Source: a virus
IMG/VR virus record: IMGVR_UViG_3300042567_001028
Coordinates: 1 to 35,129 of that record
Strand: one strand, 5' to 3'
DNA length: 35,129 bases
Shown here: piece by piece, positions 24,084-32,700 of the stretch
Position numbering within the stretch: the stretch's first letter is position 1
How the letters are laid out: every line of letters starts with the position of its first letter
Notes under the pieces: model-generated
Database searches by the model: none
Seen by the model: the letters and a program-made list of their open reading frames with translations, nothing else
Told to the model about the DNA's origin: nothing
Program-made: the position numbers and the translations under genes

Positions 24084-24461
24084 ATGTCATCACATGAACT
24101 TGGTTATTTTGGAAACATTTGGGTTAGACAACATGTTCTGGAAAGAAAAGGAGATAAAGCTCCTGGACACAAACATTTTTTTGACCATGTAACGTTACTA
24201 ACAAAAGGTAAAGTAGAAGTTATTGTTGAGGGTAAAGAACCAAAACAATTTACGGCACCAACATTTATTGTTATTAAAAAAGAACAAGAACATAAAATTG
24301 TTTCTTTAGAAGATGACACAATTTATTATTGTGTATTTGCTTTAAGAAACATTGACGGAGAAGTTATTGGTGACATTTACGGAGAACAACATGATCCGAA
24401 TTCAGCACAAACATGTCCAGAAGATTATTGGGAAAAAGTAAAAAAGATTGAAAACATTTAA
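24084..24461 (+). CDS. Cupin-domain protein
   Basis: This is a 125-residue, single-domain cupin-like protein. The first cupin motif is PGHKHFFDHVTLLTKGKVEV: His29, His31 and His35 are candidate metal ligands, with D34-H35 where the canonical motif has Glu a few residues on. The second motif is reduced (APTFIVIKKEQEHKIVSL), with His70 as the likely last ligand. The C-terminal tail is acidic (EDYWEKVKKIENI). Cupins bind metals and include isomerases, dioxygenases and non-catalytic binding proteins; this sequence alone does not choose between them. Its position in a structural locus is unusual for an enzyme. It might modify a glycan or fibre, or might be a virion protein with a cupin fold. It contains no repeats and looks compositionally like an ordinary cytosolic protein. 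Confidence 0.75.
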   Translation: MSSHELGYFGNIWVRQHVLERKGDKAPGHKHFFDHVTLLTKGKVEVIVEGKEPKQFTAPTFIVIKKEQEHKIVSLEDDTIYYCVFALRNIDGEVIGDIYGEQHDPNSAQTCPEDYWEKVKKIENI

Positions 24462-24482: not shown

Positions 24483-26207
24483 ATGTCACTACTAAAAATT
24501 AAACCGTTCATTATAGATGATACAACTGCAAGTGATGCATTTGTACAGGCTAATGCGGCTTTTTCACAGGCAAATTCTTCTGGTTCATTTGCTAATGGTG
24601 CCTTTGCACATGCTAATGCATCTTTTGCTTTCGCAAATACCATATCTGGTGGAGCCGCAATTGATAATGTTGCTAGAAGTTTAGCCAATTCAAGTGCTTC
24701 ATTTGCCAATGGTTCTTTCGATAGAGCTAATTCTGGTTACGACCAAGCAAACACTGGTGCATCATTTGCTAATGGTTCATTTGTTGTTGCTAATTCAGCA
24801 GCCTCATTTGCTAACGGTGCCTTTGTAACAGCCAATGCAGCTGCTGTGTTTGCCAACGGTGCTTTCGATAGAGCTAATTCTGGTTATGGTGTTGCAAATA
24901 CTGGTGCTTCATTTGCTAATGGTGCCTTTGTAGTTGCAAACTCGGCGGCCTCATTTGCTAACGGTGCCTTTGTAACTGCTAACGCAGCCTTCATTCAAGC
25001 CAATTCAAATTATACAAGTGCTGTAACTAAGTTGATGGTTACAACTCCTGGTATGTACTATAGTATTGACCAGTATTCAGGTAATAATCCAACAATTTAT
25101 ATTCGTGCTGGTGAAACAATTGCATTTAATCTAAATGTTTCTGGCCATCCATTTATGGTTCGATTGTCATCAGGAGGATCCAATTACGACACGGGTCTAA
25201 CTCATATAGCTACAGACGGAACATTAAGTACAGGATCTTCAGCTCAAGGAAAAATTACTGGAATTTTATATTGGAAAGTTCCTTACGATATAGTTGGTTC
25301 AACTTACGTGTACCAATGTTCTGTTCATTCTGGAATGGTTGGAAATATTGTAATTGACCAACCTACAGTAATTGCATTTAATCAAGCTAATGCTGCGTTC
25401 ACACAAGCTAATGCTGCGTTCACAGCTGCCAATAATTCTACAGATGCATGGGTAAGAACTCAAGCCAATAATGCTTTTGATACAGCTAATGCATCCTTCA
25501 TACAAGCAAACACACCGAGTTCTTTTGCTAATAGTTCTTTTGCTCATGCTAATGCGGCCTTTAATCAGGCGAATACTGGTGGTACAGATTCATGGGTAAG
25601 AACTCAAGCCAATAATGCTTTTGATACAGCTAATGCAGCCTTTAACCAAGCAAATACTGGTGGTACGGATGCATGGGTAAGAACTCAAGCCAATAATGCA
25701 TACAATACCGCAAACTCAGCAGGTTCATTTGCTAATGGTTCATTTGTTGTTGCCAATTCAGCCGCAAGTTTTGCTAACGGTTCTTTTGTAACCGCAAATT
25801 CTGGTGCAACATTTGCCAATGCAGCCTTTGCTCGTGCTAATGCGGCCTATGCACAGGCAAATACTGGTGGCGGTGCTTCATCCGTAGATACATATATCAG
25901 TCTAACAATGACCGGTGTAATAACTGTACCTTATACAGGCACCAGCAAGTTTTATCCACCTCGAGCTATGACATTAAGTGCAGTCTATGCAAATTTATCA
26001 ACAGCAGCCAGTGGTGGTAACTTTACATTTATCATTAAGAAAAACGAAACTAGTATAGGTAATACATTTACTATTACTCAGAATCAAACTGTTATGACAC
26101 CAGCGAATATAAGTGTAAGTTTGGCGACTACCGACTATCTAACTTTAGACGTAAATGGTTCACCTGCAACAGACTTATTCGTAAGAATTAAATATACAAA
26201 CACCTAA
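24483..26207 (+). CDS. Ala-Asn heptad fibre with embedded cupredoxin domain and beta-sandwich tip
   Basis: This is a 574-residue protein. Residues about 19-178 and 298-462 are Ala-Asn heptad stalks. Between them, residues about 185-295 form a cupredoxin-like domain: IYIRAGETIAFNLNVSGHPFMVRL supplies His222, and VYQCSVHSGMVGNIVI supplies Cys279, His282 and Met285. The Cys-x2-His-x2-Met spacing is that of amicyanin and related type-1 copper proteins. Residues about 465-574 form a beta domain (LTMTGVITVPYTGTSKFYPPRAMTLSAVYANL, in separate strands, ending RIKYTNT) that is also starting at the truncated 34538 gene. The protein is likely a tail fibre. Copper binding is predicted from ligands only. 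Similar cupredoxin segments occur in some marine phage structural proteins as far as I recall. Confidence 0.8.
   Translation: MSLLKIKPFIIDDTTASDAFVQANAAFSQANSSGSFANGAFAHANASFAFANTISGGAAIDNVARSLANSSASFANGSFDRANSGYDQANTGASFANGSFVVANSAASFANGAFVTANAAAVFANGAFDRANSGYGVANTGASFANGAFVVANSAASFANGAFVTANAAFIQANSNYTSAVTKLMVTTPGMYYSIDQYSGNNPTIYIRAGETIAFNLNVSGHPFMVRLSSGGSNYDTGLTHIATDGTLSTGSSAQGKITGILYWKVPYDIVGSTYVYQCSVHSGMVGNIVIDQPTVIAFNQANAAFTQANAAFTAANNSTDAWVRTQANNAFDTANASFIQANTPSSFANSSFAHANAAFNQANTGGTDSWVRTQANNAFDTANAAFNQANTGGTDAWVRTQANNAYNTANSAGSFANGSFVVANSAASFANGSFVTANSGATFANAAFARANAAYAQANTGGGASSVDTYISLTMTGVITVPYTGTSKFYPPRAMTLSAVYANLSTAASGGNFTFIIKKNETSIGNTFTITQNQTVMTPANISVSLATTDYLTLDVNGSPATDLFVRIKYTNT
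24537..25015 (+). repeat. Ala-Asn heptad repeat block, N-terminal stalk
   Basis: In-frame 21/42-nt repeats. The 35 nt at 24957-24991 are identical to 16033-16067 in the 1180-residue fibre, so the two genes share DNA-level homology. Confidence 0.84.
25374..25869 (+). repeat. Ala-Asn heptad repeat block, C-terminal stalk
   Basis: In-frame repeats with AFNQANTGGTD(S/A)WVRTQANNAFDTAN-type punctuation, resuming directly after the cupredoxin domain and running up to the C-terminal beta domain. Confidence 0.84.
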
Positions 26208-29715: not shown

Positions 29716-32700
29716 ATGTCAACTATTAGTATTTCCCCATCAGTTAGTGGGAAATCAACTTGGGATTTCGCTGTTGATGGTCCTTTAACCTTATCAACTG
29801 CTGGAACGTGGACGATTGTACCGTCAACCAACCTGTCTGTTCCCACAAAGATATGGGGTGGCGGTGGTGGTTCAGGTGAAGGTGGTGCAGGTGCAGGTGC
29901 AGGTTATGCAAATGGTTCTGTAACACTCGCATCAGGTACATCATATCAATTAATAGTAGGTGGCGGTGGTACAGGCGCAGGTTCAGCTACTCGTACTGCT
30001 GGTGGCGGTGGTGCCGGCTCAGGCATACAATTCACATCAAATTCAACTGCAATTCTAGTTGCTGGCGGTGGCGGTGGTGCTGCTGGTGGTGCAACACGAC
30101 AAGGCGGTGGCGGTGGCGGAACTTCAGGTTCTAATGGTGATAGTGCTGGTTCTGGTGGTGGTAATGGTGGCACTCAATCAGCTGCAGGTGCCGGTGCCGT
30201 TGGCAGTCGAAGAACTGGCAACTCAGGTTCTGGCCGCAACGGCGGCGGCGGTGGTACAGGTACATCTACATCAGCAGGTGGCACAGGTTTTGGTAATGGC
30301 GGCGTAGGAACATACAACGGTGCCGATTCAGGTTCAGGCGGCGGTGGCGGTGGTTACTATGGTGGCGGTGAAGGTGGCGGTGACGCTGGTGGTTTTGGTG
30401 GCGGTGGCGGTTCAGGTTATCTGCATCCAACACTTGTCTTAAACGGATCAATGACCAATGGTTCTAACAACCTATATGCCGGAAATTATACAGACTCAAT
30501 TGCAGGAACCTCAGGACAAGGCGGTAATGGTTCAAGTAGTTTAAATGGAAATGCAGGTAAGATTTACTTAGATTTGACTGTGCCAGGATTTGTTGTAGCT
30601 GCAACAGTAATCGCCGGCAGAAATATTTCCATTACTTATAATCATAGTTCAAGTTCTAGTCCAGTAGCATACACTATCACTGGTGTTACCAGCGCAGACA
30701 TAGGTGGAAATTCTTTAACTGGTGATATAACATTGTCTGGCCAGGCTGGAACTTTGTCAATACCCACATCAGTATTTTCCACCGGCGGTAACAAAACACT
30801 GACGATTTCCGCAGGAGGATATTCTGCTTCAGTTTCTATCACACCTACACCGTATGTTAGAGCAGCTTCTGGTGGAACACAAAGTACTTTTGCTTCCGGC
30901 GGTAAAGTATATCGAGCACACACATTCAATGATAGTAGTAGTTTCACAATCTCTAACTTGGATGCCGGAGCTACTGCTAATGTATTGATAGTTGCTGCTG
31001 GCGGTGGCGGTGGCGGATGGGGTGGCGGCGGTGGTGCTGGCGGAGTCTTAACTTCAGGTACTGTTGCATTAAGTCAACAAACATACACTATAACAATTGG
31101 TGCCGGTGGTGCTAGAGGAACTTCAGCATACACAGGCGGGGGAAATGGTGCAAACACCACTGCTTTAGGGTTGACTGCTATCGGTGGTGGTGGTGGCGGT
31201 TGGTATAACGGTAACAATGGGTTATCAGGTGGATCCGGTGGCGGTGGCGGTATGGGTGAAGGCACCGGTGGTATCGGTGGCGCAGGAACTACTGGCCAAG
31301 GATTCGCTGGAGGAACGGGTTCAACCAATATCAGTAGTTGGGGTTCTAGTCGTGGCGGTGGTGGCGGTGGTGCCGGAGCAAATGGCACCACTGGAGTTGT
31401 TGCCACGGCCGGTTCTACTAATGCTGGTAAAGGCGGCGATGGATTAATCTGGCCTACTGGCGGATCAACATATTACGGCGGTGGCGGTGGCGGCCATGGT
31501 GGCACAACCGCCGGCAGAAGCATAGGTGGTTTAGGTGGCGGCGGTGCTGGCGGCAGATATCAAGCTATTGGTGGTGATAGTGGTACGATTAACACAGGCG
31601 GTGGCGGTGGCGGTTCTTGGGGTGGTTCAGGTGAATTATGTGGTTTAGGTGGTTCTGGAATCGTTATTGTATCTTATGAGTTGGAACCAGGTATTATTAC
31701 GGCAAACTCGGTGACGGCAGGTGGTAACGTTGATGTTACTTATATTCATAGTTCTAATACAGGTAACGTAGCCTATACTATCACTGGTGTTATCAGTGCA
31801 GATATAAATGGCACTGCACTGACTGGCAATGTGGTCGTAACAAATTCACAAGCCACATTATCAATACCTACCGCATCTAAAATTGCTACCACAAATATAT
31901 TAACACTTACGCTCGGTGCGTTTACTGCGAATGTGACCATCACGCCTGGTATTTCTGCAAGATATCTTATAGTTGCAGGCGCTGGCGGTGGCGGTTCTGA
32001 CATGGGTGGTGGCGGTGGCGCAGGTGGATATCTTGCTGGTACTGGTTTATCACTAACAGGACTTAACACCATTACGATTGGTGCCGGTGGCATAGGCGCA
32101 CTTCCCGGTACTTCAGGTCCAGCCGGATCAAACGGAGCGAATACAACAGCATTTGGATTAACTGCTATAGGTGGCGGTGGCGGTGCCAGTGTCCACAACA
32201 CAGCTGGTTACAATGCAGGCAATGGTGGTTCAGGTGGCGGTGGATCTGGTGCTCGTCAAAGCAGTGCCAGTTACGGTGGTTTACCGGGAACCGGAACAGC
32301 AGGTCAAGGTAGTAATGGTGCTGCTAGTGGTGTGACATGGTATCCTGGTGGTGGCGGTGGCGCCGGTGCGGCCGCAAGTCAGACTGGTAGTCAGCAGGCA
32401 GACGGCGGTATTGGTTTAGTCAATGATATTTTAGGTACTAGTTATTATTGGGCAGGCGGTGGCGCAGGCGCTGGTTATAGTACATTTGGTGGTAATGGTG
32501 GTTTAGGTGGCGGCGGTGGCGGTGCACCAAGGCAAGGTGCCGGCACTACTAATGGTACAGGCGGTGGTTCTGCACTAAATTCAGGTTCAGTAGCTGAAAT
32601 TGGAACCACAGTTGCTCAGACCAACAAAAAAGGCGGCGCAGGCGGCGTTAACACCGGCGGTGGCGGTGGCGGCGGATCACATTACAATGTAACAAATGAT

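Follow-up and report, generated by a model that had tools for sequence, protein, structure and literature searches.

In cells, blue-copper domains are known to carry electrons or to form part of copper enzymes. Amicyanin, which carries electrons in the periplasm as a free protein of about 105 amino acids, has the same Cys-x2-His-x2-Met loop as the domain described here (Foldseek E 1.7e-4), but the stretch that matches is mainly this C-terminal loop. Rusticyanin, the soluble electron carrier of an iron-oxidising bacterium, shares a G-H-x-F-x-I strand with the domain and is both its best fold match in the PDB and the best wide-family profile match. On the other hand, the ligand loop of rusticyanin is longer (Cys-x4-His-x4-Met) and the score of the domain lies far under the NCBIfam cut-off. 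The AcoP cupredoxin (7z3b) has the top TM-score among the PDB matches listed, 0.62 of the query, although it is a bacterial protein with 15% identity. Among phage proteins, the gp9-like connector of T4-like cyanophages (PHROG 677) has a homologous C-terminal domain, for which the records examined show the same four ligands; there the domain ends the protein, whereas here it lies in the middle of the stalk of another fibre. None of the PHROG 677 annotations examined gives a copper-site reading. Another phage-encoded copper protein is the plastocyanin PetE, a photosynthesis gene carried by cyanophages (PMC3037559), but it is not a virion domain. Metal-binding residues on tail fibres are known from the HxH sites of T4 gp37 and R22Y gp12, which hold octahedral iron by His-x-His motifs and have no cupredoxin fold, and for which a "Trojan horse" route was published (PMC11705849). 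We found no description of a cupredoxin in a phage fibre in the open-access literature. From its sequence and its model, the domain would bring a known fold and its ligands to a new place, the phage fibre.

The window, that is, the whole stretch of DNA analysed, corresponds to a virus record 35,129 bases long and is a fragment of the tail-fibre region of a T4-like phage. The families recognised around the fibre ORF are the gp10-like C-terminal domain, long tail fibre, baseplate wedge and glycine-rich families. Table 1 gives the positions of the features. A domain of about 110 residues between two Ala-Asn stalks had been proposed in the initial annotation, and the heptad Asn is indeed found on both sides of the domain. 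The Asn autocorrelation at lag 7 is 0.89 in the N-side stalk, where 17 of the 23 Asn share one heptad phase, and 0.53 in the C-side stalk. Such spacing of Asn by seven residues in both stalks is as in a coiled coil with core Asn, and the fibre stalk is presumably trimeric. A Pfam family search with the tip domain returned no family.

Table 1. Features of the tail-fibre ORF and their positions in the window
Feature	Positions	Strand	Basis or remark
Tail-fibre ORF, 574 aa	24483..26207	+	tail-fibre PHROGs on stalk, PHROG 677 on domain
N-terminal Asn-heptad stalk, aa 16-178	24528..25016	+	Asn periodicity; probable trimeric coiled coil
Cupredoxin-fold domain, aa 179-298	25017..25376	+	AlphaFold2, Foldseek PDB matches, PHROG 677
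His222 (GHPF), predicted first equatorial ligand	25146..25148	+	domain H44; aligns with rusticyanin GHxFxI His
Cys279, predicted thiolate ligand	25317..25319	+	domain C101, invariant
His282, predicted second equatorial ligand	25326..25328	+	domain H104, invariant
Met285, predicted axial ligand	25335..25337	+	domain M107, invariant
C-terminal Asn-heptad stalk, aa 299-465	25377..25877	+	Asn periodicity
C-terminal tip domain, aa 466-574	25878..26204	+	no Pfam match

Two other proteins of the window were noted in passing. Just upstream of the fibre, positions 24084-24458 encode a 125-aa protein with a weak Cupin_2 match (E 0.0045), an H-x-H motif and a later His, which is 96% conserved in sister phages; it is possibly a second metal-binding beta protein adjoining the fibre. 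At 29716-31500 a Shr-like HID match (aa 299-374, E 1.3e-6) exceeds the Pfam cut-off. HID stands for the haemoglobin-interacting domain of the haem protein Shr. The protein with this match is of virion type and 1590 aa long, and Laminin_G_3 and glycine-rich domains are present in it as well.

The initial annotation read the domain as an amicyanin-like type-1 copper domain with H222, C279, H282 and M285 as intact ligands. In the 574-aa translation these residues are found at these positions and all four are present. The amicyanin-type spacing is also there (C279-H282-M285), and amicyanin came first in the PDB profile search with the close family (E 0.012). The stretch GETIAFNLNVSGHPF had been compared to the amicyanin strand that carries the first His; the strand is real, but its nearest profile counterpart is the strand of rusticyanin, not that of amicyanin. 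When the wide family was used for the PDB profile search, rusticyanin came first (E 0.0073), with the first His and the Cys-His-Met residues in register. Within the window, the C..H..M pattern was found once in an open stretch over all six frames. When the residues of the domain were shuffled, the pattern together with a His 40-75 residues upstream appeared in 55 of 200,000 trials, and with the conservation of the ligands described below this rules out a chance motif. Cys279 is the sole Cys of the protein, so that no intrachain disulphide can form, and a disulphide or zinc-finger role for this residue is unlikely for the same reason. Another residue, His241 (THIATDG, 25203-25205), is invariant in the 15-sequence close family and not in the gp9-type domains.

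The fold was evaluated with an AlphaFold2 model of the domain built from 84 aligned sequences, which reached a pLDDT of 94.9 and a pTM of 0.88 and consists of beta strands and one short helix. Against the PDB, Foldseek placed rusticyanin 1gy2 at the top (E 3.4e-5), followed by matches that include copper nitrite reductase, AcoP, amicyanin, plastocyanin and laccases. At E <= 1e-3, 36 of the 38 matches are named cupredoxins or multicopper proteins, while the titles of 1m9w and 3cvd are uninformative. The TM-scores to solved cupredoxins are modest, at 0.42-0.62 of the query. Nevertheless, the wrong fold that would have spoken against the initial annotation was not found, as the model is all-beta and its best PDB fold matches are cupredoxins; the domain almost certainly has the cupredoxin fold as modelled. 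In the model, the first His opens a strand and Cys closes the last strand but one; the final loop holds the second His and Met. These predicted places fit a type-1 site. The model also matched giant-virus proteins in BFVD with E-values of 5e-6 to 3e-4, namely a "Blue type 1 copper protein" of Fadolivirus and beta-sandwich proteins of Pithovirus and Marseillevirus.

The relation in sequence is weaker. Pfam PF00127 (Copper-bind) gave 16.9 bits (E 0.0085) for the window domain, under the gathering cut-off of 21.2 bits, and it was matched by 41 of the 84 family members at E <= 0.1, with a best E of 1.9e-5. NCBIfam amicyanin TIGR02657 gave 14.1 bits compared with an equivalog cut-off of 110.2 bits, and no plastocyanin model scored above its own cut-off, which lends no support to a descent from cyanophage petE. 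Since the scores of the Pfam and NCBIfam copper models are under their cut-offs, the relation to the known blue-copper families is distant, and "amicyanin-like" should be understood as describing the ligand loop only, not orthology. Pfam PF25489, the At5g54830-like domain family that takes its name from a plant protein, is matched by ten members of the alignment, with a best E of 2.8e-5. A recent capture from a cellular gene is not supported, as two scans of the genomes of 84,980 species, with a reach of fairly close relatives only, returned no relative.

All four ligands are present in 123 of the 127 unique homologous domains; contig ends truncate two others, and the remaining two lack the ligands. 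We regard the retention in 123 of the 125 uncut domains as decisive for the reality of the motif, and the loss of ligands in most homologues, named beforehand as the result that would disprove it, is thus not what was observed. The first large homologue search used the patterns AGETIAFxL and GLTHIATDG, and because the ligands are not among them, the homologues from this search were not selected for ligands; a later search with a gp9-type sequence used peptides that included ligand-containing ones. The invariant columns over 84 sequences are G32, H44, P45, F46, G60, G82, Y99, C101, H104, M107 and G109, and the chance that four preset columns fall among 11 invariant columns out of 120 is about 4e-5. 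Across unrelated host proteins and identities of 36-100%, few residues are as constant as the four ligands, which are retained whether the domain sits in a gp9, protease, Ig-like or stalk setting. The dN/dS values of homologous domains against the window domain are 0.06-0.29. We consider it probable that the domain binds a metal at the four-ligand site.

It could be argued that the domain is a purely structural beta-sandwich, an Ig-like bulge in which the ligand residues are kept by packing or shared descent, with no metal in the virion. Phage fibres often have Ig-like and lectin-like beta domains, and other proteins of the window carry such domains too. In addition, both ligand-less domains (L059:1288-1584 and L090:6416-6727) are second copies in proteins that also have an intact copy, and they persist beside it. 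However, packing does not predict the joint constancy of Cys, His, His and Met across unrelated hosts, and we judge this explanation unlikely. As for the metal itself, the sequence does not reveal its identity, and iron is bound by the HxH sites of T4 fibres (PMC11705849). Zinc, nickel or iron, or a redox-sensitive thiol in place of a copper centre, should thus be considered, but a cupredoxin fold that bears Cys-x2-His-x2-Met and a His upstream of it shows the pattern of type-1 copper sites, which makes these options quite improbable. We think it likely that the bound metal is copper. Counting against copper, virion assembly takes place in the cytosol, which contains little free copper.

The stated insertion of the domain into the stalk can be seen directly, since there are syntenic sister fibres without the insert. 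These fibres (L213, L214, L215, L217 and L219) have the same start and end as the window fibre and are 388 codons long with no Cys. Their tip is 91% identical to that of the window fibre, and their neighbours are the same as in the window, with the cupin-like protein at 96% and a 126-aa protein at 100%. Of the 13 loci with the tip in which the ORF start is present, 10 have no cupredoxin domain. The domain itself is 66-92% identical between proteins whose N- and C-terminal parts are unrelated, and its carriers are of Asn-heptad stalk, collagen-like GPQ stalk, coiled-coil, gp9-like and subtilisin-like types. As far as can be read from these sequences, the domain is a shuffled cassette that is optional for the fibre, and the existence of sister fibres without it means that it is needed neither for assembly nor for the tip. 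Coding repeats interspersed through the stalk may supply homology for the exchange of the cassette. A role of the domain as the specificity tip was set aside, because the tips differ among the carriers and the tip of the window fibre occurs without the domain. The same sister fibres weigh on a proposal of copper-dependent stability, by which the metal would lock the domain, and with it the shaft, and so protect both from proteases and unfolding in open water. The position of the domain, mid-stalk here and C-terminal in the gp9-like connectors, would agree with this, but a fibre with the same ends and neighbours exists without the domain, so the shaft does not need it; such a role is rather improbable.

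Relatives of the domain were detected by tblastn in at least 327 phage records, nearly all of them Synechococcus or Prochlorococcus phages. Their main place is the C-terminus of gp9-like baseplate wedge/tail fibre connectors, and the window domain matches PHROG 677 with an E of 2.4e-25 at profile positions 317-409 of 412. The window protein lacks the gp9-like N-terminal part, as PHROG 677 is matched only at its C-terminal positions 282-409, and outside the domain it consists of the Asn-heptad stalk and the tip. In 16 phage records checked in detail, the H, C, H and M were kept in 15; the match of S-CAM1 is split and was not judged. In S-SKS1 (L202), one of these 15, the spacing is Cys-x4-His-x2-Met, with two residues more between Cys and His. 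This Cys-His spacing is rusticyanin-like, and the departure weighs against the copper-site reading. The domain also occurs in a subtilisin-like protein encoded by S-H9-1 and in a P-HM1 protein with Ig repeats, and predicted viral structures add S8 peptidases and proximal tail fibres to its carriers. In one cyanophage, a protein with the annotation "baseplate wedge tail fibre connector" was detected by virion proteomics (PMC9146016). On the basis of these matches, we place the domain in a large family found in the virion proteins of aquatic T4-like phages.

This distribution also bears on host recognition, in which the copper centre would dock to a redox or copper-uptake protein of the host, like the iron "Trojan horse". 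The full type-1 ligand set and, among named phages, the occurrence of the domain mainly in phages of picocyanobacteria are consistent with this, and for iron the idea itself and the HxH sites in fibres were published (PMC11705849). However, many members come from uncultured phages and no partner is known. The tip, not the shaft, usually sets the specificity of a fibre, which also counts against such docking, and we hold host recognition through the metal to be distinctly unlikely.

Taken as a whole, the sequence and model evidence supports the reading of a type-1 copper-like domain. The explanation we favour on balance is a cupredoxin-fold domain with the full type-1 (blue) copper ligand set, carried as an optional cassette in the fibre shaft, where it may act as a metal-loaded accessory module for adhesion or decoration. 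The fibre trimer would fold around the Asn-heptad coiled coils, and the three copies of the domain per trimer would bulge outward from the shaft. Each copy would bind one copper ion, probably acquired after release from the cell. The copper-loaded domain may then give the shaft an accessory surface for adhesion or decoration, with specificity set by the variable tip. A metal site that is strictly kept where the domain is present, in a fibre for which the domain is optional, argues for a metal-dependent benefit. On the other side, apo-cupredoxins also fold. The assignment of accessory adhesion as the function, rather than redox activity or stability, is tentative and falls somewhat short of an even chance.

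If working blue-copper centres on the virions of aquatic T4-like phages, three to each fibre trimer, dock to copper or redox proteins of the host, which we consider a long shot, copper supply would tune infection and virion-bound copper would make up a pool in natural waters. Under the favoured explanation, very common virions would carry a probable metal centre on their outer side, within a mobile module of the fibres and baseplate connectors of hundreds of aquatic phages. This explanation would give the C-terminal part of cyanophage gp9 a function that is testable in culturable phages such as P-SSM4 or Syn9, whose gp9 carries the domain, and it may link copper chemistry with phage adhesion in the way proposed for iron.
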